Assembly (NCBI GenBank): GCA_028554795.2
Contig: CM068825.1
Coordinates: forward strand, 153,094,053-153,158,052
DNA: 64,000 bases
Direction of reading: 5' to 3'
From: Sinohyriopsis cumingii
Taxonomy: Eukaryota; Mollusca; Bivalvia; Unionida; Unionidae
Below, one piece after another: positions 1,390 through 52,900 of the stretch; the stretch's first letter is position 1; every line of letters starts with the position of its first letter. The position numbers and the translations under genes are program-made. The notes below the pieces were generated by a model that was not told the origin of the DNA, searched no databases, and was given only the letters and a program-made list of their open reading frames with translations.

Positions 1390-1835
1390 TGGTTTCATTC
1401 AAAAATAGTGTCTTTCCACTCCTCCCATATGGATTTCTGTATCTACATGGGTTTTTCACCAGAATACTGGTTATAATCTCCTGTTGGTCCTAAATCAAAA
1501 TGATGCAATACGGCTTTTTTATCTCCACTTCTCCCAAATGGATTTCTGTATCAACATGGGGCTTATACCAACAGTTGCTAACACGACTACCCCAGAATGG
1601 ATGGTTTTATTGACATGGAATGTTCACCAAAAGACTTCAATTATGTCTGCTTGGTCCTAAATGAAAATGGTGCCAGTGTGACGTACATTTCCACTACAAC
1701 ATCTAATTTGAAATCTTGTTGCTCAAGAACACTGGTGATGGTTCCAACTCTCGGCTGTAAAAAAAAAACAAGGAAGAAATGGCTTGATCATGAATTGCTG
1801 GAAATTATTTTCACCCAGCTAAGCATCAGTCTCTT
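1390..1835 (+). repeat. Copy of a ~140-bp diverged repeat family, about 3 units
   Basis: Units share a recognisable core: 'ttggtcctaaatgaaaatgg', then a segment naming a stacked 'ccacaacagccatcttgaaa'-like motif, then 'ctcccaaatggatttctgta' and 'caacatggg'. The same units form a longer array at about 42930-44170. The homology also covers the downstream flank (about 1740-1835 here against 44055-44160). The open frame that crosses this copy is therefore repeat sequence and not a gene. Confidence 0.65.
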
Positions 1836-2924: not shown

Positions 2925-3123
2925 TACACATGGTGGCTAGTATAAATGGTGGTGAAAGGACCCAGGAAAACCCCAGAAAGAACCAACGACCCACAGGAAG
3001 CTACTGGCAAGCCTTCTCACATACCCCAATTGGCCGAACCTGAGACTCGAACCCACGCAGAAGAGGTGAAATGGCAGTGATACATAACGGTAAACGCTTT
3101 AGACCACTCGGCCACTCTGAGTC
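2925..3123 (-). mobile_element. SINE1 copy, reverse orientation, 3' end truncated
   Basis: On the - strand this reads from a tRNA-like head (gagtggcc A-box region, gggttcgagtctc B box) through gccagtagcttcctg to catgtgtagcc. The final gctgaaaaatggcgtt and CAA tail are missing. It abuts a second, more diverged SINE1 piece in the opposite orientation at 3124-3240. Confidence 0.75.
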
Positions 3124-3240
3124 CCTTGACAAAGAGCGGATCCGGCCAACGTATCTACCAGTAGCTTCCTGTGAATTAGTGGTTCTACCGCCACCAAATA
3201 TATTGTCCACCATGTATATAGTGCTGAAAAATGACCTTGT
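3124..3240 (+). mobile_element. Diverged SINE1 3'-half remnant
   Basis: The segment aligns to the second half of SINE1 (ccagtagcttcctg, ggttctaccgccacca, accatgtatatagtgctgaaaaatg) with many substitutions and no tRNA head. It ends just before the target site of the 3251-7899 element, so that element inserted next to or into old SINE sequence. Confidence 0.6.
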
Positions 3241-3250
3241 AGTCACAAAA

Positions 3251-3575
3251 GTAGTATAGAGGGATGATAGGGGGACAATGGAAAATCCAGTCAAAAAGGT
3301 CGTGGGACCTTAGGGGGACAAGATTTATAGGGACACTGGAAAATCCAGTCAAAAAGGTAATGGGACCTTCTGGGGACAATGAGACTTATCAATAATATAG
3401 GGATGAAAGGAATGGGACAGGTGAGGTGACATCACGGTACTGAAGATTGGTAACAATCTTGCAAGGAGCTGACCTCAGTCGGATCAAAGAGCAGGGAAAA
3501 AACTTAGAACGCTTGACGGGACATAGACATATATAACACATACAACATACAAACAAATATATAACTAAAAAAATT
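3251..3575 (+). repeat. Left terminal inverted repeat
   Basis: Matches the reverse complement of 7622-7899. It carries an extra internal duplication at about 3313-3370 that repeats the tccagtcaaaaaggt and gggacctt block. The shared region contains caggtgaggtgacatcacgg, a CRE-like site that is a perfect TGACGTCA in the right copy. Confidence 0.85.
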
Positions 3576-3591
3576 CGATTTTCTCAAATTC

Positions 3592-4380
3592 TTCCACCAT
3601 CTCCTCACTTTCTCAATAATTCCTTTCCTCTTCCTCTTTTGCATCTCTGGAATCCAGTCAGGATGTCCCATCAATCGAAATTTTTCCTGTTTTCATTCAG
3701 TCTTTCAAACTACCTTTTTCTTTGTTTTCTTTGTCCTTTCTTTCTTTAGCCCATCTGTAGTTTTTACTTCTTCACCTCTTCTTCAGTCACTTTTCTCATT
3801 ATTTCTTCTCCTTATTTAGTTGGTCCAGACCCACTTCACAAATGACCGCTCTGTCCAAAGCACCTTACTTTGATGATATCATCAAGTGTCTCCTTCAAGG
3901 TTCCCACTCTTACATATGATAGTTGAATGAAACCTCTTAATGTTTCTACTTCCTCCTCTGGGGACCCCAAGTGGCAGAGTGGCCTAAAGCGCTCTCCGTT
4001 ACGGATCACTGCCATCTCACCTGTCTGAGTGGGTTCAAGTCTCCGATTCGGCCAATGTGGGTATGTGAGAAAGCTTGCCAGTAGCTTCTCGTGGGTCGGT
4101 GTTTTTTCCCGGGTTCTTCCTCCACCATTAATACTGGCCGCCATGTATAGCCTATCGTGTGCTGAAAAATGGCGTTAAACCCTACAACAACAACAACAAC
4201 TTCCTTCTATCATACCTTGTACCAGATCCCTGGCTACTTTCAGGCTAGTGACAAAGTCTAGGCTACCTTGATGCTTCCATTCCTTCTCAATCCTTTCCAC
4301 CACATAGGCTGCATCCATGATCAGTACCAACATTCCTTCAATTTGTTGAACAAATCTATTGCCATCTTTGTTTACTCACT
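3592..4380 (-). pseudogene. Element gene 4: decayed helical-protein gene split by a SINE
   Basis: Once the SINE at 3955-4198 is ignored, the - strand shows a coding-like stretch. From about 4375 downward it encodes a helical, charged segment including MDAAYVVERIEKEWKHQG and LKVARDLVQGMIEG. It continues below the SINE as PEEEVETLRGFIQLSYVRVG and ends GQSGHL before a stop near 3836. The two halves are one frame apart, so there is at least one indel besides the insertion. The region 3592-3835 is strongly purine-biased on this strand (Lys/Glu-rich if translated) and may be further coding remnant. The protein family is not recognised. No histone-type stem-loop was found at this gene's end. The motif EV-TLRG also appears in the tail region of gene 3, near 5190-5210, which hints at shared ancestry. 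Confidence 0.5.
3955..4198 (+). mobile_element. SINE1 inserted inside element gene 4
   Basis: A full-length tRNA-derived copy (head gtggcagagtggcctaaagc, B box gggttcaagtctc, end gctgaaaaatggcgttaaac, CAA tail). It is flanked by the 7-bp duplication acttcct at 3948-3954 and 4199-4205. It interrupts the coding-like region on the opposite strand and so post-dates the arrival of the TIR element. Confidence 0.8.
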
Positions 4381-4381
4381 T

Positions 4382-5040
4382 CACATATTATCTACTATAC
4401 ACACACGGAAAGGACAACAAAAAAACAAACCCTTACTATACTCTCCACAAACCCAAATATACTATCCACACACAGGAAGGAGAAAAAACCAAACCCTTAC
4501 TATACCATCCACACATGGGAAGGAGAAAAAACAAACCCTTACTCTACTATCCACAAACCCAAATATACTATCCACACATGGGAAGGAGAAAGAAACAAAC
4601 CCTTACTATACTATCCACACATGGTAAGGAGAAAAAAAAACTTACTATACTATCCAAAAAAACTATACTATCCACACACGGGAAGGAGAAGAAAGAAAAA
4701 AAACTTACTATACTATCCACACACAGGAAGGATAAATACTATCCAAAAAACCAAAATATACTATCCACACACGGGAAGGAGAAGAAAGAAAAAAAAATTG
4801 CTATACTATCCACACACAGGAAGGAGAAGAAACAAACCCTTACTATACTATCCACAAACCCAAATATACTATCCACAAATGGGAAGGAGATAAAACAAAC
4901 CTAAATTATACTATCAAAAACCACAATATCTACTATCCACACAAACGTACTTGAATGCTTACAAACCCCAAAAATCTACTATCCACACAAACATATGTGC
5001 ACTTACGCAAACACACTCTACTATCCACACAAACGTAAGG
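4382..5040 (+). repeat. Irregular tandem repeat inside the TIR element
   Basis: About 650 bp built from tatccacacatgggaagg-type units alternating with tatccacaaacccaaatata-type units, with A-rich insertions of variable length (unit length about 40-63 bp). Long open frames here (up to 181 codons, Lys/Tyr/Thr/His-rich) are a product of the repetition. Confidence 0.85.
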
Positions 5041-5151
5041 CAGCTCATACACAAACTATCACATTAGTAATAGAGTGAGTGTTTATAATTACATTACTCC
5101 ACACTCATGCCGGCTGGCAACTTGAATAGTCTCTTTTCTAGAGATTTGGGT

Positions 5152-5167
5152 AGCCCTGAGAAGAGCT
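5152..5167 (-). terminator. Histone-type 3' stem-loop A (end of element gene 3)
   Basis: On the - strand the sequence is AGCTCT-TCTC-AGGGCT: six pairs (one G-U) around a 4-nt loop. It is followed by ACCCAAA and then CTCTAGAAAAGAGAC, which resembles the purine-rich histone downstream element bound by U7 snRNA. This matches the layout of metazoan replication-dependent histone mRNA 3' ends. Confidence 0.75.
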
Positions 5168-5317
5168 GTTTTTTTTTTTTTTTAAACTCCAAATACACCT
5201 CTTAATGTTGTCACCTCCTAGGTCTAGCCCCACACACGCATCGTGTGCTCCAGTCCTGCTCCCAATTGATGCGTGTGGTTGGGGTGTTGATTTGCATCAT
5301 TATCCCCCTCTTCCGTT

Positions 5318-5683
5318 TTAGGGATAGTGAACACTTGTTGCTGTTGTTCCCTCTGTCTTATGTGCAACACTCGGGGATAAATTGGCCTCCTGTGGACACT
5401 GTACTGGTTGTGACTGTGGCTGTGGTGCTGCAGCTGGCTGTGGTACTGGTGTTAACTGTGGTGTTATCCTCACCTCAGGCTTGACCTCACACAGAGGTCT
5501 CATCATGAGGTGAGGCAGGATCGTTCTTTTCCTTTCCATTGCCTCTTGCTTCTTCTTTTCCTCCTCTTCTTTTTCAATTCTTTCACTTTCCTAGATTGCC
5601 TCCATGGCCAGCTCATCCAGGAGGCGCCTGACATATTCCAGGTGCATCTGGACTTCCATCAGTTTTGTGAGTCTGTTGCTCAT
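5318..5683 (-). pseudogene. Element gene 3: small helical protein with Pro/Gln-rich tail, one in-frame stop
   Basis: The start codon at 5681-5683 is preceded by AAG and lies about 50 bp downstream of a TATA box. The frame gives about 121 codons with one TAG at 5591-5593 (codon 31). Residues 1-65 are predicted helical and rich in Leu, Glu and Lys (MSNRLTKLMEVQMHLEYVRR, then after the stop a Glu/Lys/Arg run). Residues 75-100 are Pro/Gln-rich (TPVPQPAAAPQPQSQP). The family is not recognised. It ends about 150 bp before stem-loop A. The promoter, short length and lack of introns resemble a histone gene, but the protein is not a histone. I infer a decayed formerly functional gene. Confidence 0.6.
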
Positions 5684-5731
5684 CTTTAGTTGATGAATCA
5701 ACGATGGGTAGTCAGACTGACGATCGCTCCC

Positions 5732-5739
5732 TTTATATA
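5732..5739 (-). promoter_or_regulatory. TATA box of element gene 3
   Basis: TATATAAA on the - strand, about 50 bp before the gene 3 start codon. A plausible start region (tcgttgattcatc) lies about 30 bp downstream of the TATA box. Confidence 0.6.
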
Positions 5740-5909
5740 TGTCAAGCACGAGCGTGAAGTAAAACACCTCCGACACCAAAACGTAAAAGGTCCATATCAT
5801 TACCCCAAAAACATGAAAGGTGCGGATCCTAAAAGAAACAATTACTTTTTACTTAAAAACACTAGCTACAAACACAAACACATACTGATTATTTTTTTTG
5901 ACAATCTAC

Positions 5910-5980
5910 GGAAACGAAGTGCTTATAGACACACTTCTAACAAAGGCAAACAAACGAAGTGCTTATAGACGCACTTCTAT
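5910..5980. repeat. Duplicated imperfect palindrome upstream of gene 3
   Basis: Two copies of acgaagtgcttatagac(a/g)cacttct lie about 40 bp apart (near 5914 and 5954). Each has gaagtg/cacttc arms, so it could form a hairpin or bind a dimeric factor. They sit in the 250 bp between the gene 3 TATA box and the end of gene 2. A regulatory role is only a guess. Confidence 0.45.
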
Positions 5981-6020
5981 TTTTAACTTACTAACATACC
6001 ATTGGCAATTTAATTATTTT

Positions 6021-6269
6021 CTATTTTCTAGATAATATTTGGGGTAGCCCTGAAAAGGTCTGTTTTTGTGGAAATGGAGTTATGGCAATCTTTAACTGTC
6101 TAAGATTGCGTCCCCGTCTGGTGACAAGCTTTGCCACAGGATAGGGTCTGCTTCTTCGGAAAGAACAGAGAGAGTGAACAAAGACACATAAGAAGTCTAT
6201 GAACTTTTTAAAGTGTTGTTTTGTCTTGTGAATTGGATTGTAAAATTTGTACCAGAATAAACCAAACAT
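6021..6269 (-). pseudogene. Element gene 2: truncated paralogue of gene 1's 3' end
   Basis: An open - strand frame of 82 codons ends in a basic segment, RRGRNLRQLKIAITPFPQ, that resembles the C-terminus of gene 1 (GRGKGLRQLKRITSRS). The frame runs through stem-loop B, so the original stop is gone or shifted. The N-terminal part (FGLFWYKFYNPIHKTK) has no counterpart in gene 1. Only about 350 bp separate stem-loops B and C, too little for a full gene 1 copy, so this looks like a 5'-truncated duplicate. Confidence 0.4.
6046..6061 (-). terminator. Histone-type 3' stem-loop B (end of element gene 2)
   Basis: On the - strand AGACCT-TTTC-AGGGCT, with the canonical TTTC loop and one mismatched pair. 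It is followed by ACCCCAAA and a purine-rich AGAAAATAGAAAAT segment. Confidence 0.7.
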
Positions 6270-6418
6270 GAAACGTAAATGTCTCTTGGTTTTGATTTTT
6301 TAGAATATGGATCTACACTCACGCACTCACTGACACGTACATCATGATCAAAAATGGGATTTTGAGTTTGAATTGATTTTGCTAAAATGAATGATATCTC
6401 TTTTCAAGAGAAGTGGGT

Positions 6419-6434
6419 GGCCCTAAAAAGGACC
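6419..6434 (-). terminator. Histone-type 3' stem-loop C (end of element gene 1)
   Basis: On the - strand GGTCCT-TTTT-AGGGCC, six pairs including one G-U. It is preceded by CCAAAC and followed by ACCCACTTCTCTTGAAAAGA. Upstream CCAAA, the stem-loop, ACCCA and the GAAAAGAG downstream element all fit the metazoan histone mRNA 3' end. This is the best of the four. Confidence 0.85.
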
Positions 6435-6462
6435 GTTTGGGTATTTGTTTAAAAAATCAAAC

Positions 6463-7083
6463 TCAGGAACGGGACGTAATCCGCTTTAATTGCCTTAAGC
6501 CTTTGCCACGGCCAAGGCCTACTTCTGGGCTGTCTCCTGTCGATGATGATGATTTGGTAGACATCACTAGGGGTGATATTGAAAGCATAGTAACAGGTTT
6601 GGGTTGTTTGGCTCGGGAAGGTCTTTTTCTCTTTGGTCGTAGTGAAGAAGTTTGATACATTTGCTTTAGACTCCTTAACTCTGCCAAAATGTCTAAAAGT
6701 ACCGTCCTCGTTTGACTTTCACTGTCCTCCTTCTCCCTTAGACTTTGTTTCTTCTCTGCTGATTCTTCTTCCTGTCGTTTCTTTCTTGCTTCTTCTTCTC
6801 GCTGTTGCTGTTGAAGGAGAAAAACTTGTTCTGCTTCTTTCTGCTATTGTAAAAATTTCTCCAATTCTTCTTTCTGACTTTGTTTAAAATCCTCGAAGAT
6901 GGAGAAGGTGGCGAAGGTAATGGTACCGGAATAAATTCTTGCGAAGAAGAGAGAAAATCGACTAAATCCGAATTAAAATCCACCTTTTCTGGAAGTAGGA
7001 CTGCGTTGACTTTGATAGCCGCTGCTATACCGTCGCTTCCCGTCCGGTGCACCCCAATTCAGTGCCTTCTTAGTTTCCGTCAT
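6463..7083 (-). pseudogene. Element gene 1: coiled-coil/basic-tail protein with two in-frame stops
   Basis: ATG at 7081-7083. One frame runs 206 codons to a stop at 6463 but contains TAA at 6973-6975 (codon 37) and TAG at 6844-6846 (codon 80). N-terminal residues (MTETKKALNWGAPDGKRRYS) are basic. From about codon 65 to 130 the protein is Gln/Glu/Lys-rich and probably coiled-coil (QSQKEELEKFLQ, EEEARKKRQEEESAEKK), then LLDILAELRSLKQMY. The tail is basic (RPKRKRPSRAKQPK, GRGKGLRQLKR), like a nuclear protein. Between codons 27 and 65 another frame reads more protein-like (VDFNSDLVDFLSSSQEFIPV), suggesting two compensating indels. It ends 29 bp before stem-loop C. The family is not recognised. 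Confidence 0.6.
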
Positions 7084-7312
7084 GTTTGAAAACTCTTTCG
7101 CATGGATTCACGACGTACAAGCGCTAGTGCACCTATAACGAGAATGTGACGTCATAGGCAGTTATCTTCGGATTGGAAGACAGACTCCACATTGTGACTG
7201 AATTTTGTAACGCATGTTTGGATTGGTGAATAAACTCAATCCGTTTCTTTCCACTCTTCCACTATAAATAACCGCAGTTCACTGCATTCCCTTCACCTGT
7301 TCTCGTCTCAAG
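7084..7312. promoter_or_regulatory. Divergent promoter between element gene 1 and gene 5
   Basis: This 229-bp gap separates the two divergently oriented starts. It contains a perfect CRE (TGACGTCA, 7147-7154), two CCAAT boxes read as ATTGG on the + strand (7172-7176 and 7222-7226), and TATAAATA (7263-7270) 43 bp before the + strand ATG. On the - strand a TATA-like gttataggtg lies near 7130-7140. Paired divergent starts with CCAAT, CRE and TATA elements are typical of H2A/H2B gene pairs. Here neither product is a histone. Confidence 0.65.
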
Positions 7313-7554
7313 ATGTGGACAAACGTAGAATCATCTACTCTCGTATCGTCAATGCTGTTCCGTACGGACTTACCCATGTATGTCAGATCATAATGGACAA
7401 TCATCCGGATCACCGTCACGAGCGTTTGGAAAAAACAAATCTATGTGGAGAAACAAGGCTGTCCGAAGAGAGTCCTTATCTACGGTTCAAAGGTCAGAAG
7501 AAGTTTGAGGAAGAGAAGAAGACCTATGTGTTGCCCTCTATGTTAACGGTATGA
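7313..7554 (+). pseudogene. Element gene 5: small basic Cys/His-containing protein, frameshifted start
   Basis: The first ATG after the TATA box is at 7313, but its frame stops after 26 codons. A frame one base pair-step away, from 7315, is open for 79 codons: DKRRIIYSRIVNAVPYGLTH, then VCQIIMDNHPDHRHERLEK and SPYLRFKGQKKFEEEKKTYV, stop at 7552-7554. The protein-like composition of the second frame suggests a small indel just after the ATG. It has several Cys and His residues but no classical zinc-finger spacing. The family is not recognised. The stop lies only 17 nt before stem-loop D, a short 3' UTR as in histone mRNAs. Confidence 0.55.
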
Positions 7555-7571
7555 TGCAAACAAAAAATAAA

Positions 7572-7587
7572 GACCCTATTCAGGGCC
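7572..7587 (+). terminator. Histone-type 3' stem-loop D (end of element gene 5)
   Basis: GACCCT-ATTC-AGGGCC: five pairs plus one mismatch around a 4-nt loop. It is followed by ACTCATATGCC and TCGAAAAGATTT, a plausible U7-like downstream element. It is the least perfect of the four but lies in the expected place. Confidence 0.6.
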
Positions 7588-7621
7588 ACTCATATGCCTC
7601 GAAAAGATTTGCTTTCTTGTC

Positions 7622-7899
7622 TAAAAATTAATTTAGTTGTATAGTTGTTTGTGTTTGTATATTGTATGTGTCATATATGTCTATGTCCCGCCAAGCGTTC
7701 TAGGCTTTTTTCCCCGCTCTTTGGTCCGGTTGAAGTCAGCTCCTTGCAACACTGTTACCAATTTTCAGTACCGTGACGTCACCTCACCTGTTCCAATCCT
7801 ATTGTCCCTATATTAATGATAAGTCTCATTGTCCACAGAAGGTCCCACGACCTTTTTGACTGGATTTTCCTTTGTTCCCCTATCGTCCCACTATACTAC
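7622..7899 (-). repeat. Right terminal inverted repeat
   Basis: The reverse complement matches 3251-3575 through caggtgaggtgacgtcacgg (with a perfect CRE), aagagcggggaaaaaagc, and the cgggacatagacatatat segment, ending in gtagtatag at the border with the TSD. Confidence 0.85.
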
Positions 7900-7907
7900 T
7901 CACAAAA

Positions 7908-8349
7908 CCTTACAAATGACATTTGTGATATTCAGGGTTCCTGCCACAAATTCCTGACCACACACAAAATTTCCATACCCATGAAATAAACGAGGCAGAT
8001 TAATTCTTAGCATGTCTGCACAAGGACCAGTCAAGATGATGTGGACTTCTCCCACAGTTTTATCACTTTGTGAAGTTGAATTCTATAGTTACTTCTGAAG
8101 ATCTCAAAGTCCACATAAAAAACATATCCTAGACACAAAAGAGCAGCCATGTTCCCTGTTTCCATAATTTAAAAAAAAATAAGTTTATTTCAAGACTTTT
8201 TACAAAAAATTTCCATACATTTTCAAGACCTGGAAAAGCAATTTTAAAAATGTATACCTTTTCCAGACCTGGACATTGTAGGCCGATTGTTACAAGATTC
8301 TCTTCATTGTACAAAAAGCTACCAATAGTGATACAGTGTAACTACAACT
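7908..8349. other. Intergenic
   Basis: A pair of inverted motifs (caagacctggaaaag and ttttccagacctgg, about 8225-8275) may belong to an old dispersed repeat. No gene was recognised. Confidence 0.35.
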
Positions 8350-21559: not shown

Positions 21560-22560
21560 TAAAAGTTGGCATATATGCCATCCAGTATCCAAGAACAGTA
21601 CTATCCAGATAAAAGCACTCATTAAATTCCACTACAGATGCAACAAACCAAATGCAAGTTGGAAAAGCGAAATTTAAATAATCGTTATTAAAAAAATACA
21701 AATACAATGTAGACAAAGGGCATCACACCACAACGGAGTTCAGTAGATTTTAATCTTGTCCAAGCTCATCAAGCTAGCTGTGATATGAATATATTACATA
21801 CACATCATCAGCAATCTTGACGACTCTTCCAAGGCATCTATCTTATAAACTACTTTGACCACATTTCCGTCTTCAAACGCACGACCAAAACGACTTCGCT
21901 GTAGATTTAAAGCTGCAACATGACAGCCTAATCTGCTTTATTTTTTGCATCATTAACTGGGATTAGTCTGTAAAATTTACTTTGCACACTATCTCCATTT
22001 CTTCAACATCATAAAACTACTCGTGTTTAAGGCACTGTTTAAACCTACAAAAACCAAAAAATTTTTACCCTTGGTCTTTACCTTGACAAATAATTTGTTT
22101 TCATAGTAGTTGACAGAAAATACTGGCATAGTCCCATAGAACAGACTGGTATAAAATGCAAATTAACAGACAGGACTTTTGTCAAACGGTATAATTTAAT
22201 TTATTTACAACTTCCCCATTTTTATCATTAAAGTGCAACATAATAAATTATGCATGACCAACCTATGATCAACCCACAAGTCAAATTGCATCAGTTTCTG
22301 TAAAATGTGTATTAAAAAAACATTGAATTTAGCAAAATACCCACACGATGTGTAAAAGGTTTATTTTATTATGGTAAATACATGCACTGCCCTCCACTCA
22401 AACTGTACCAATCTTGATGACAGGCAAGTAATCAAGCTCATCAAAGCAGGCTGTGATATGAAGAGATACGACACATCATCAGCCACTTTGACGAATTAAC
22501 TACCAAACACTTTTAAGATGTACAATCCACATTCAGTGCCTGGATAGTACATAAATAGGC
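21560..22560. other. Region downstream of PCNA, nothing recognised
   Basis: Lies beyond the 3' end of the - strand PCNA gene. No open frame with support was found. Confidence 0.35.
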
Positions 22561-49900: not shown

Positions 49901-52900
49901 TTCATTTTAAAACATTATGCCAGCCTGCCATCAAATATGACCACCAATTTTAAAAGGCATTCTTCTTTTTGAAATTACACAGTGATTTATTACACTATAT
50001 AAAAAATCTTTCAACTTCTTGAACACCAAATAAATAGTTTCTTTCTAAGTTAAGAATTATGGACTGGGAGAAATGTTTTATGCCTGATAAGAAAATAATG
50101 GTATCTGCATAATAAGTTTTGTTCATGGCTGGATACCTTGATCAAATGTCCAGGTCCTTAAGACCAATTTGTCAATTTCATAGTCCAACATGGCCCGCGA
50201 ATACCTACAAAGGACTTTGGAACATTTGGCATGTGTATAATTACTGTTTGTGATAGTCTTGTTGTGTTATAAATTCCAGAACCTAACTAGTAAGCCTGGT
50301 ATGAGTGATGTGGTGAGACCCCATGAAGATATTTAAACCTTTCAAAACTTTAATTTCATCAGGCATTAAAGGTGTTTGTGAAATGAGTTTATCATTGCTT
50401 CATCTGTGGGTTTTATCATTTGGTCATTGGTAGTGGTATCATGCATGGTGTCTTTAGGTGTTCATTCTAATTTGGTTATAGGCTGGTCTCATACATGGGG
50501 TCTTTAGGTGTACATTATAATTTGGTTATAAATTGGTCTCATACATGGTGTCTTTAGGTGTGCATTATAATTTGGTTATAAACTGGTCTCATACATGGTG
50601 TCTTTAGGTGTGCATTATAATTTGGTTATAAACTGGTCTCATACATGGTGTCTTTAGGTGTGCATTATAATTTGGTTATAAACTGGTCTCGTACATGATG
50701 TCTTTAGGTGTGCATTATAATTTGGCTATAGACTGGTCTTATACATGGTGTCTTTAGGTGTGCGTTATAATTTAATAATAATGAGGACTTTGTATAGCGC
50801 CTAATCTTTAAAAGCTCTAAGCACTTTACAACATTAGACAAGATCTGTAACAAGATTCAGCCAATGTGGGCATGTGAGAAAGCTTGCCAGTAGCTTCTCG
50901 TGGGTCGGTGGTTCTTTCCGGGGTTTTCCGGGTTCTTCCTCCACCATTAATACTGGCCGCCATGTATAGCCCTATCGTGCTGAAAAATGGCGTTAAACCC
51001 CACAACAACAACAACAACAACAAGATCTGTAACATATAAAAAACATATATAATGATATTATTACAGAAAACATGCTGTAAATATTTAAGGTAGGGAACAT
51101 TATTAGGTCTGTAAGTTTGTTCTTGCAGTCAAAATAATTGAGTTTTAAGAGCACTCTTGAATGGGTCTAAGTTCAGTGGTCATTCATTCCACGTTGCTGG
51201 GCCCTGGTATGCAAAAGAACATTGTCCATATGACTGTGTTTTCATAGTGGGAATAATGAGTATACGATTGTCAGAAGAGGAGCGTAAGTATCTTGCTGGT
51301 GTGTACACATGGGTGAGGTCAGATAGATATGTTGGACTGGAGTCTGTCAGTGAAACGTAGCACAGAGAACAAATTTCGTGTTTGATTCTGGATTGAATGG
51401 ATAGCCAATATAGGGTAGAGAGCAGCCAGTAGGTGTGCTCGGATCGTGGTACTCTAAGTATGATCCAAGCAGCTGTGTTTTTAACTTTCTGAAGTTTCTG
51501 AAGTAGATATTGAGATGAACCAGACAGAATTGAGTTACAATAGTCCAGTCTTGAAAGTACTAATGAAGATACAAGTGTTTTAGTGGCATCAGCTGAAAGA
51601 TATTTGCAAATGGAGCTGATGCGTCTCAGCACAAGATATGCAGCCTTGCATATGTTCATGACATGTTGGTGCAATGTGAGAGTACTGTCCAGAGTGGCAC
51701 CTAGGTTTCGTACTGACTGTGTGAATTTAATGTTGGTGTTGCTGATATTTGTTGTTTGAGGTAAAGGATGTGAATGAGAAAGTCTTTGTGTTGTGATCAG
51801 AATGGCCTCAGTTTTATCATTCATCTGTAGCTTGTTACATGTCATCCATGATTTCAAATTAGAAATGCCCCTCTCTACACCTTGGATGGTAACTTCAACT
51901 TAAGTTGGATGGCTAGATTTGTATATTTGGGTGTCATCAGCATACAATTGGTGAGACACTGGATGATGATCTCTGACAATGGAGAGTGGCTGAGTTTATA
52001 GAATGAAGAGAACAGGTCCAAGACCCCTGTGGAAAACTACAACATAGATTAACTGGGCTTGAGTGTATTCCATTTGCAGACACAATTTGTGTCCTGCTTA
52101 TCAAGTAGGATTTGAACCACAGTAAGGCTGTATCGTGAATGCCAAACACATGCTGGAGTCGGTGAAGTAATATATCATGGTCTGTTGTGTCAAATGCTGC
52201 AGACAAATCAAGGAGGGTGAGGACTGTAATCTTTCCACCTTCCAAAGCAGAATGTCATTAAGTACTTTTAGAAGAGTAGTTTCAGTACTGTGGCAAGGGC
52301 GAGATGCAGATTGTACATTGCTAAAAAGACTGTTTGAATTCAGATTAGATACAAATTGGGACAGAACAACCTTTTCTAAGATTTTTTATATGAATGGGAG
52401 ATTAGAAACTGGGCAGTAGTTCTTCAAATCCTTCTGGTCGAGTGTTGGTTTCTTCAGCAGAGGCTTTACAGTGGCGGTTTTAAAAAATGATGGGAATTCC
52501 CCAGATGAGAGAGAGGTATTAATAACATCAGTTAGTGAATTTGGTTATAAACTGGTCTCATACATGGTGTCTTAGGTGTGAATTACAATTTGGTTATTGG
52601 CTGTTATCATACATGGTGTCTTTAGACATGCATTATGATTTGGTCATTGGCTGTGGTCTCATGCATAATATCTTTAGCTGTGCATTATAATTTTCTCATT
52701 GATTGTGATCTCACACATGCTGTCTATGATTTGTTCATTGACTGGTCTCACAAATGCAATCTAAATGTGAATTATGATTTAATCATTGTCTGGTCTCATA
52801 AATGGTGTCTATAACTGTGCATTAGTTTGGTGATTGACTGGTGTCACACATGGTGTTTGCTGTGCATTATGATTTGGTCATTTTGGTCTCATGTAGTGTC

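Follow-up and report, generated by a model that had tools for sequence, protein, structure and literature searches.

Histone-type stem-loops at the ends of small terminal genes in a Polinton/Maverick family of Sinohyriopsis cumingii

A mobile element and its stem-loops

The stretch of DNA analysed here (64,000 nucleotides of the bivalve Sinohyriopsis cumingii, contig CM068825.1, positions 153,094,053 to 153,158,052 of the forward strand; hereafter the window) carries near its start a mobile element in which small genes are followed by predicted stem-loops of the type that ends histone mRNAs. The initial annotation, made from the letters alone, had outlined this element as 3251..7899; its actual ends lie at 3250 and 7900, giving 4.65 kb bounded by long terminal inverted repeats (TIRs) and a 6-bp target-site duplication, CACAAA, the same six bases standing outside both ends (left copy 3244..3249, right copy 7901..7906). 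The proposal that the segment is mobile is thus supported.

Rfam covariance models were run with cmscan over positions 3000-8200, with E values up to 10 accepted, and the model of the histone 3' stem-loop (RF00032, gathering score 34) matched the four sites noted initially, all of them above background, and no further ones. Stem-loop and downstream element together occupy 5127..5172 behind the gene S2 (- strand; 22.8 bits, E 0.0058), 6021..6066 behind S3 (- strand; 18.4 bits, E 0.27), 6394..6439 behind S4 (- strand; 33.1 bits, E 8.7e-7) and 7567..7612 behind S5 (+ strand; 24.6 bits, E 0.0012); the model itself aligned to 5128-5172 at S2 and to 7567-7611 at S5. The positions and strands of the four hairpins were right as first given, but a stem of six standard pairs is present in only two of them, at 5152-5167 and 6419-6434, the stems at 6046-6061 and 7572-7587 having one non-standard pair each. 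A gathering-level Rfam scan of the whole 64 kb listed no RF00032 match and, because none of the four sites attains the gathering score, the window copy by itself is suggestive only.

It is correct that short non-histone genes end in these hairpins, although in the window copy the coding regions are partly broken. S2 (5318..5683, - strand) survives as open reading frame (ORF) pieces at 5318-5590 and 5591-5848; S3 (6067..6162, - strand) is represented by its 3' end only, which reaches an internal deletion joint at ~6160-6162; and S4 (6449..7089, - strand) and S5 (7313..7554, + strand) are both broken, their products measuring 210 aa and 76-77 aa, respectively, in uninterrupted copies. S4 and S5 diverge from an interval at 7090..7312, which contains a TATAAAT for S5 at 7263-7269 as well as ATTGG and TGACGTCA motifs read by eye from the sequence. 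At the other side of the element lies a remnant of a fifth gene, S1 (3574..4378, - strand), interrupted by a repeat inserted at ~3960-4198, and its stem-loop was not found in the window copy; at another locus of the host genome (L044) the S1 product is a coiled-coil protein of ~197 aa. In line with the expectation that none of the products is a histone, a Pfam scan found no histone family in the S1, S4 and S5 pieces nor in the S1 and S2 pieces of a longer copy (L054).

The left TIR (3250..3555, 306 bp; repeat pairs I1, I3 and I4, family D6) contains a 50-nt tandem duplication, and the right one (7652..7900, 249 bp) is 88-90% complementary to it. Internal direct repeats at 4384..5049 also occur in the longer copies L053 and L054. 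Inverted copies of an interspersed repeat, which by eye looks tRNA-derived and SINE-like, lie at 2964-3125 and 3961-4121, the second within the S1 remnant. Elsewhere in the window there are two microRNA precursors of the mir-2 family that exceed the gathering score (21760-21827 and 22432-22498, - strand) and a 239-aa ORF (51180-51899, - strand) that by eye resembles part of a LINE reverse transcriptase.

The full-length family and the genes that carry the signal

Positions 6400-7100, used as a query against the 2.9-Gb host genome, gave 5,087 first-look candidates with 40 scored copies, one being the window and the other 39 having 82-85% identity. The left portions of L053 and L054 are homologous to the window up to ~6162, and the right portions of L039-L044 from ~6160 on, which reveals an internal deletion in the window copy. 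Two longer copies were each seen as a pair of adjoining loci, L053 with L044 and L054 with L042, the latter spanning ~17 kb. In the orientation of the window, their minus strand encodes in order S1, S2, S3, a protease, capsid-like pieces, an integrase, an ATPase-like piece, a BIR protein and a family-B DNA polymerase with a zinc-finger piece, and beyond the polymerase follow a CCHC zinc-knuckle gene (plus strand), S4 (minus) and S5 (plus).

Among the polymerase pieces there are matches to PF03175 (E 3.5e-4 and 9.7e-4, neither reaching the curated cutoff) and to a phage polymerase family (E 1.3e-21). Two consecutive integrase pieces match positions 6-42 and 51-93 of PF00665 (rve; E 3.5e-4 and 8.6e-4, under the curated cutoff). 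The protease matches PF00770 (E 0.0024, under the cutoff) and the PDB chains 6lj9 (E 1.2e-5) and 1avp (E 9.3e-4). Several of these Pfam scores fall under curated cutoffs because the pieces are fragments. The ATPase-like piece gave weak P-loop matches only (FtsK_SpoIIIE, E 0.043) and was assigned to FtsK/HerA by eye; likewise, the capsid-like pieces had no Pfam, PHROGs or PDB sequence match, and their assignment to double and single jelly-roll proteins was made by eye. The BIR (inhibitor-of-apoptosis) protein gene was seen at L041:507-1175 (- strand; PF00653, E 5.3e-21).

Target duplications of 6 bp are a property of Polintons/Mavericks. We assign the family to this group because of its polymerase matches, two rve pieces, PF00770/PDB protease matches, TIRs and 6-bp duplication, the defining gene list being taken from PMC11071308, and the element in the window is identified, from its predicted products and borders, as an internally deleted copy of an abundant ~17 kb Polinton/Maverick (virus-like) family of the host. 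With Polintons/Mavericks and adintoviruses it shares the TIRs, the 6-bp duplication, the family-B DNA polymerase, the rve integrase, the adenain-like protease and the length of ~17 kb, but differs from them in having histone-type stem-loops at the ends of five small terminal genes. Similarly, it resembles internally deleted non-autonomous DNA elements in having retained both TIRs while the core genes are gone, although unlike them the window copy still has portions of the small terminal genes together with four of their five 3' signals. A search of IMG/VR with the polymerase piece and the ATPase-like piece confirmed no relative.

The better-preserved relatives retain the stem-loops. RF00032 scores 18.1, 27.8 and 30.1 bits behind S1, S2 and S3 of L054, and 31.7 and 36.2 bits behind S4 and S5 of L042, which adjoins it; a near-complete copy has five predicted histone stem-loops, at the ends of the small terminal genes S1-S5, of which the window copy lost one. 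The statement that the genes of the element end in stem-loops holds, therefore, for these five genes and not for the core genes of the copies examined. No histone-type stem-loop was found at the end of the protease gene in 20 copies without an internal stop, in most of which ~70-120 nt past the stop were inspected, and the polymerase, BIR and CCHC gene ends of L039-L044, L053 and L054 had no RF00032 match at E up to 5. The possibility that the S3 stem-loop terminates the protease gene was rejected, given these 0/20 copies and the separate small gene that precedes S3 in L053.

The stem starts 23-26 nt past the stop codon in 20 of 28 S5 rows and 27-30 nt past it in three of seven S4 rows (two of the rows in each set repeat an already counted copy), at 21 and 26 nt in two of three S1 rows and at 86 nt in one of two S2 rows, the remaining rows having no motif match. 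Of the 14 S5 rows that extend far enough upstream, 11 have a TATA-like box 35-52 nt before the start codon; six of seven S4 rows have one at 42-56 nt.

Likeness to host histone genes and conservation

RF00032 scored 35.9, 37.7, 38.2 and 39.4 bits on four host histone genes, H3, H4, H2B and H2A, respectively, whose identity was read from their products. Of the 75 scored RF00032 matches in the whole genome, the best eight (44.1-45.6 bits) all belong to the present Polinton family, whose top members thus outscore these four genes. The likeness extends to the downstream element, as GAAAAG begins exactly 13 nt past the stem at 55 of 63 places, being absent at the other eight, and lies at 13 nt in the host H3, H4 and H2B genes and at 14 nt in H2A. 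Since a stem-loop expression served to pick the 63 places, and the presence of a stem-loop was the reason for fetching 28 of the searched loci, this spacing count bears on the downstream element only. The element's genes share with the replication-dependent histone genes of the host the stem-loop, a GAAAAG 13-14 nt past it, a short distance from stop to stem, a TATA-like box and, in the copies seen, single-exon ORFs; they differ in their products, which by Pfam are not histones in the pieces scanned, and in being scattered through the genome, whereas the histone genes stand in 8.3 kb arrays. Many such arrays, with a repeat of ~8.3 kb, were observed (L045, L046 and other contigs).

These features also bear on the idea that the hairpins are DNA or genome-RNA signals, used for replication, packaging or integration, and that their histone likeness is incidental. 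They do sit toward both ends of the element, as such signals might, but their orientation tracks the genes, S4 and S5 being opposed with each hairpin just past its own gene, and loop, flank and 13-nt spacing are the same as in host histone genes. We regard this explanation as the least credible of those considered.

The stem-loops are abundant in the genome. A strict pattern, GGYYCTTTTYAGRRCCACC, had 7,291 + 7,524 = 14,815 matches, as opposed to 0 + 0 for the reversed pattern used as a control; the four host histone genes do not match it. The first 100 places listed, which lie on a single contig, were sampled at intervals of five, and 20 out of 20 end S4 (16) or S5 (4) genes of this family. 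Outside the host, a search of 257 Gb of prokaryote DNA counted 48 stretches with the strict pattern; in IMG/VR it matched one contig and another stem-loop pattern two, and the match in L055 falls inside an ORF.

When the same 100 places were read by eye, 94 had the commonest form of the stem-loop. Pair 3, C-G, was replaced by U-G in two and by U-A in two, pair 4 was U-G in one and one had another loop, while the C-A mismatch that the pattern permits was not seen. Pair 1 is A-U in S2 and S3 of several copies and G-C in S1, S4 and S5 of others. These are compensating substitutions, few in number, which is the modest extent to which the covariation sought in other copies was found.

Selection was best seen by comparing S5 between two lineages: 30 rows of the window lineage (chosen by their S4 region, a few of them without stem-loop sequence) and 12 rows of a second lineage, picked with a query that excludes the stem-loop. 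Mean identity between the lineages is 0.86 in the stem-loop and 0.90 in the downstream element, against 0.65 in the ORF, 0.61 in the 8-nt spacer, 0.48 in the adjacent flank and 0.38 farther out. The ratio of non-synonymous to synonymous substitution (dN/dS) of S5 has a median of 0.19 over 86 pairs with usable dS from 19 distinct uninterrupted ORFs, and of 0.18 over the 65 pairs with dS of 0.25-3; S4 gives 0.52 (10 pairs) and S1 0.36 (a single usable pair). By these comparisons, both halves of the putative signal are shown to be separately conserved and S5 to be under coding selection. In the second lineage, 39 of 40 scored copies are 97-98% identical to the query, the fortieth being the query itself, and the lineage has therefore multiplied recently.

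It could be argued that the stem-loops are functionless relics of a histone gene end that was captured once and then copied within the element, and their sequence and spacing are indeed near those of the host H2B and H3 ends. However, there are five sites, each behind a different gene, and both the stem-loop and the downstream element have changed little from one lineage to the other, with some compensating pair changes, for which reason we find such an origin of mere relics very improbable.

Proposed processing of the transcripts and its implications

In histone mRNAs the stem-loop is bound by SLBP, the U7 snRNP pairs with the sequence downstream, and the mature message, mostly made in S phase, stops at the stem-loop and has no poly(A). 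We think it likely, given the gene ends described above, that the S1-S5 transcripts are processed in this manner by the SLBP and U7 of the host, yielding mRNAs without poly(A) mainly in S phase. Host SLBP would bind the stem-loop of an S-gene transcript, the U7 snRNP would pair with the purine-rich downstream element, and the transcript would be cut between the two, leaving an mRNA without poly(A). Production and translation of the S-gene mRNAs would then fall mainly in S phase, at the time when copying of the element is possible, and having accessory proteins present during host DNA replication could benefit a DNA element that integrates and encodes its own polymerase. The biology of histone mRNA is established (PMC2781718, PMC12775136).

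Several observations weigh against this interpretation. A search of the host genome with RF00066 (U7) gave no match, and neither did the control genomes; a loose U7 pattern had 149 places versus 96 in the control, with a convincing 3' hairpin in none of 13 candidates. A stricter U7-like pattern had a single match, versus 0 in the control, at L177 ~1494-1546 (+ strand), which has 9 nt complementary to the downstream motif of the element and a Sm site of the vertebrate type, but a weak hairpin, and RF00066 gave it only 16.4 bits. Poly(A)-signal hexamers lie near 26 of the 63 stem-loops, as compared to 532 of 2,760 random windows, and in the window itself an AATAAA (7566-7571) overlaps the 5' flank of the S5 stem. 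Since the core genes lack the signal, it is no rule for the whole element. Finally, conservation within one lineage is only weakly raised, both in S4 (stem-loop 0.88, flank 0.79, ORF 0.89) and in S5 (stem-loop 0.73, ORF 0.77, flank 0.68), where 25/30 rows have the right length, 126/150 pairs are standard and all six pairs are kept in six rows. A small excess over the flank is expected if copies decay after insertion, and within-lineage conservation is weak evidence because old copies decay freely.

The hexamers and the U7 searches would be accommodated if the stem-loops were kept for SLBP-dependent translation, stability or timing, while ordinary downstream cleavage with polyadenylation, or both routes together, produced the 3' ends. 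Twenty-one of the 26 hexamers are in fact one inherited site, ATTAAA/AATAAA, located 61-66 nt past the start of the S4 stem, and at the other five places the hexamer stands 8 nt before the stem; besides, no convincing host U7 emerged from the RF00066 and pattern searches. On the other hand, the downstream element is kept between lineages while the spacer is not, it stands at the host spacing in most of the places counted, none of the 17 S5 places has a hexamer nearby, and two of the four host histone genes do have one. We judge exclusive or partial recourse to polyadenylation unlikely, though it deserves more weight than the other two alternatives; dual processing, above all of S4, is possible because of the hexamers near stems, mainly at that gene.

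Taking histone-type processing as the preferred reading, we lean, with only slightly better than even confidence, toward a broader proposal, in which an endogenous DNA virus lineage took over the processing of host histone pre-mRNA and made it the usual way to finish accessory-gene messages. Expression of the accessory genes would then follow host DNA replication and need no poly(A), whereas core replication and virion genes would take another route, giving a two-class expression programme defined by 3' ends; with more than 14,000 additional sites, the family may also rival histone genes in access to SLBP and U7. That such a programme is why only the small terminal genes use stem-loops is a guess on our part.

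To our knowledge, histone-type 3' ends are almost confined to replication-dependent histone genes. The initial annotation knew of no transposon or virus family with this arrangement; while the kind of element is known (Polinton/Maverick), no report of histone-type 3' ends in Polintons, adintoviruses, other transposable elements or viruses was found in the full-text literature searched, which included few subscription papers, and to that extent such gene ends are undescribed.

Use of such ends by a virus-like element would, if true, amount to a naturally occurring hijack of the SLBP/U7 pathway. It makes testable why a DNA parasite would tie its genes to S phase and avoid poly(A), whether such transcripts escape RNA data selected for poly(A), and whether thousands of extra sites burden histone production in the host. 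In addition, RF00032 matches in animal genomes need not indicate histone genes.

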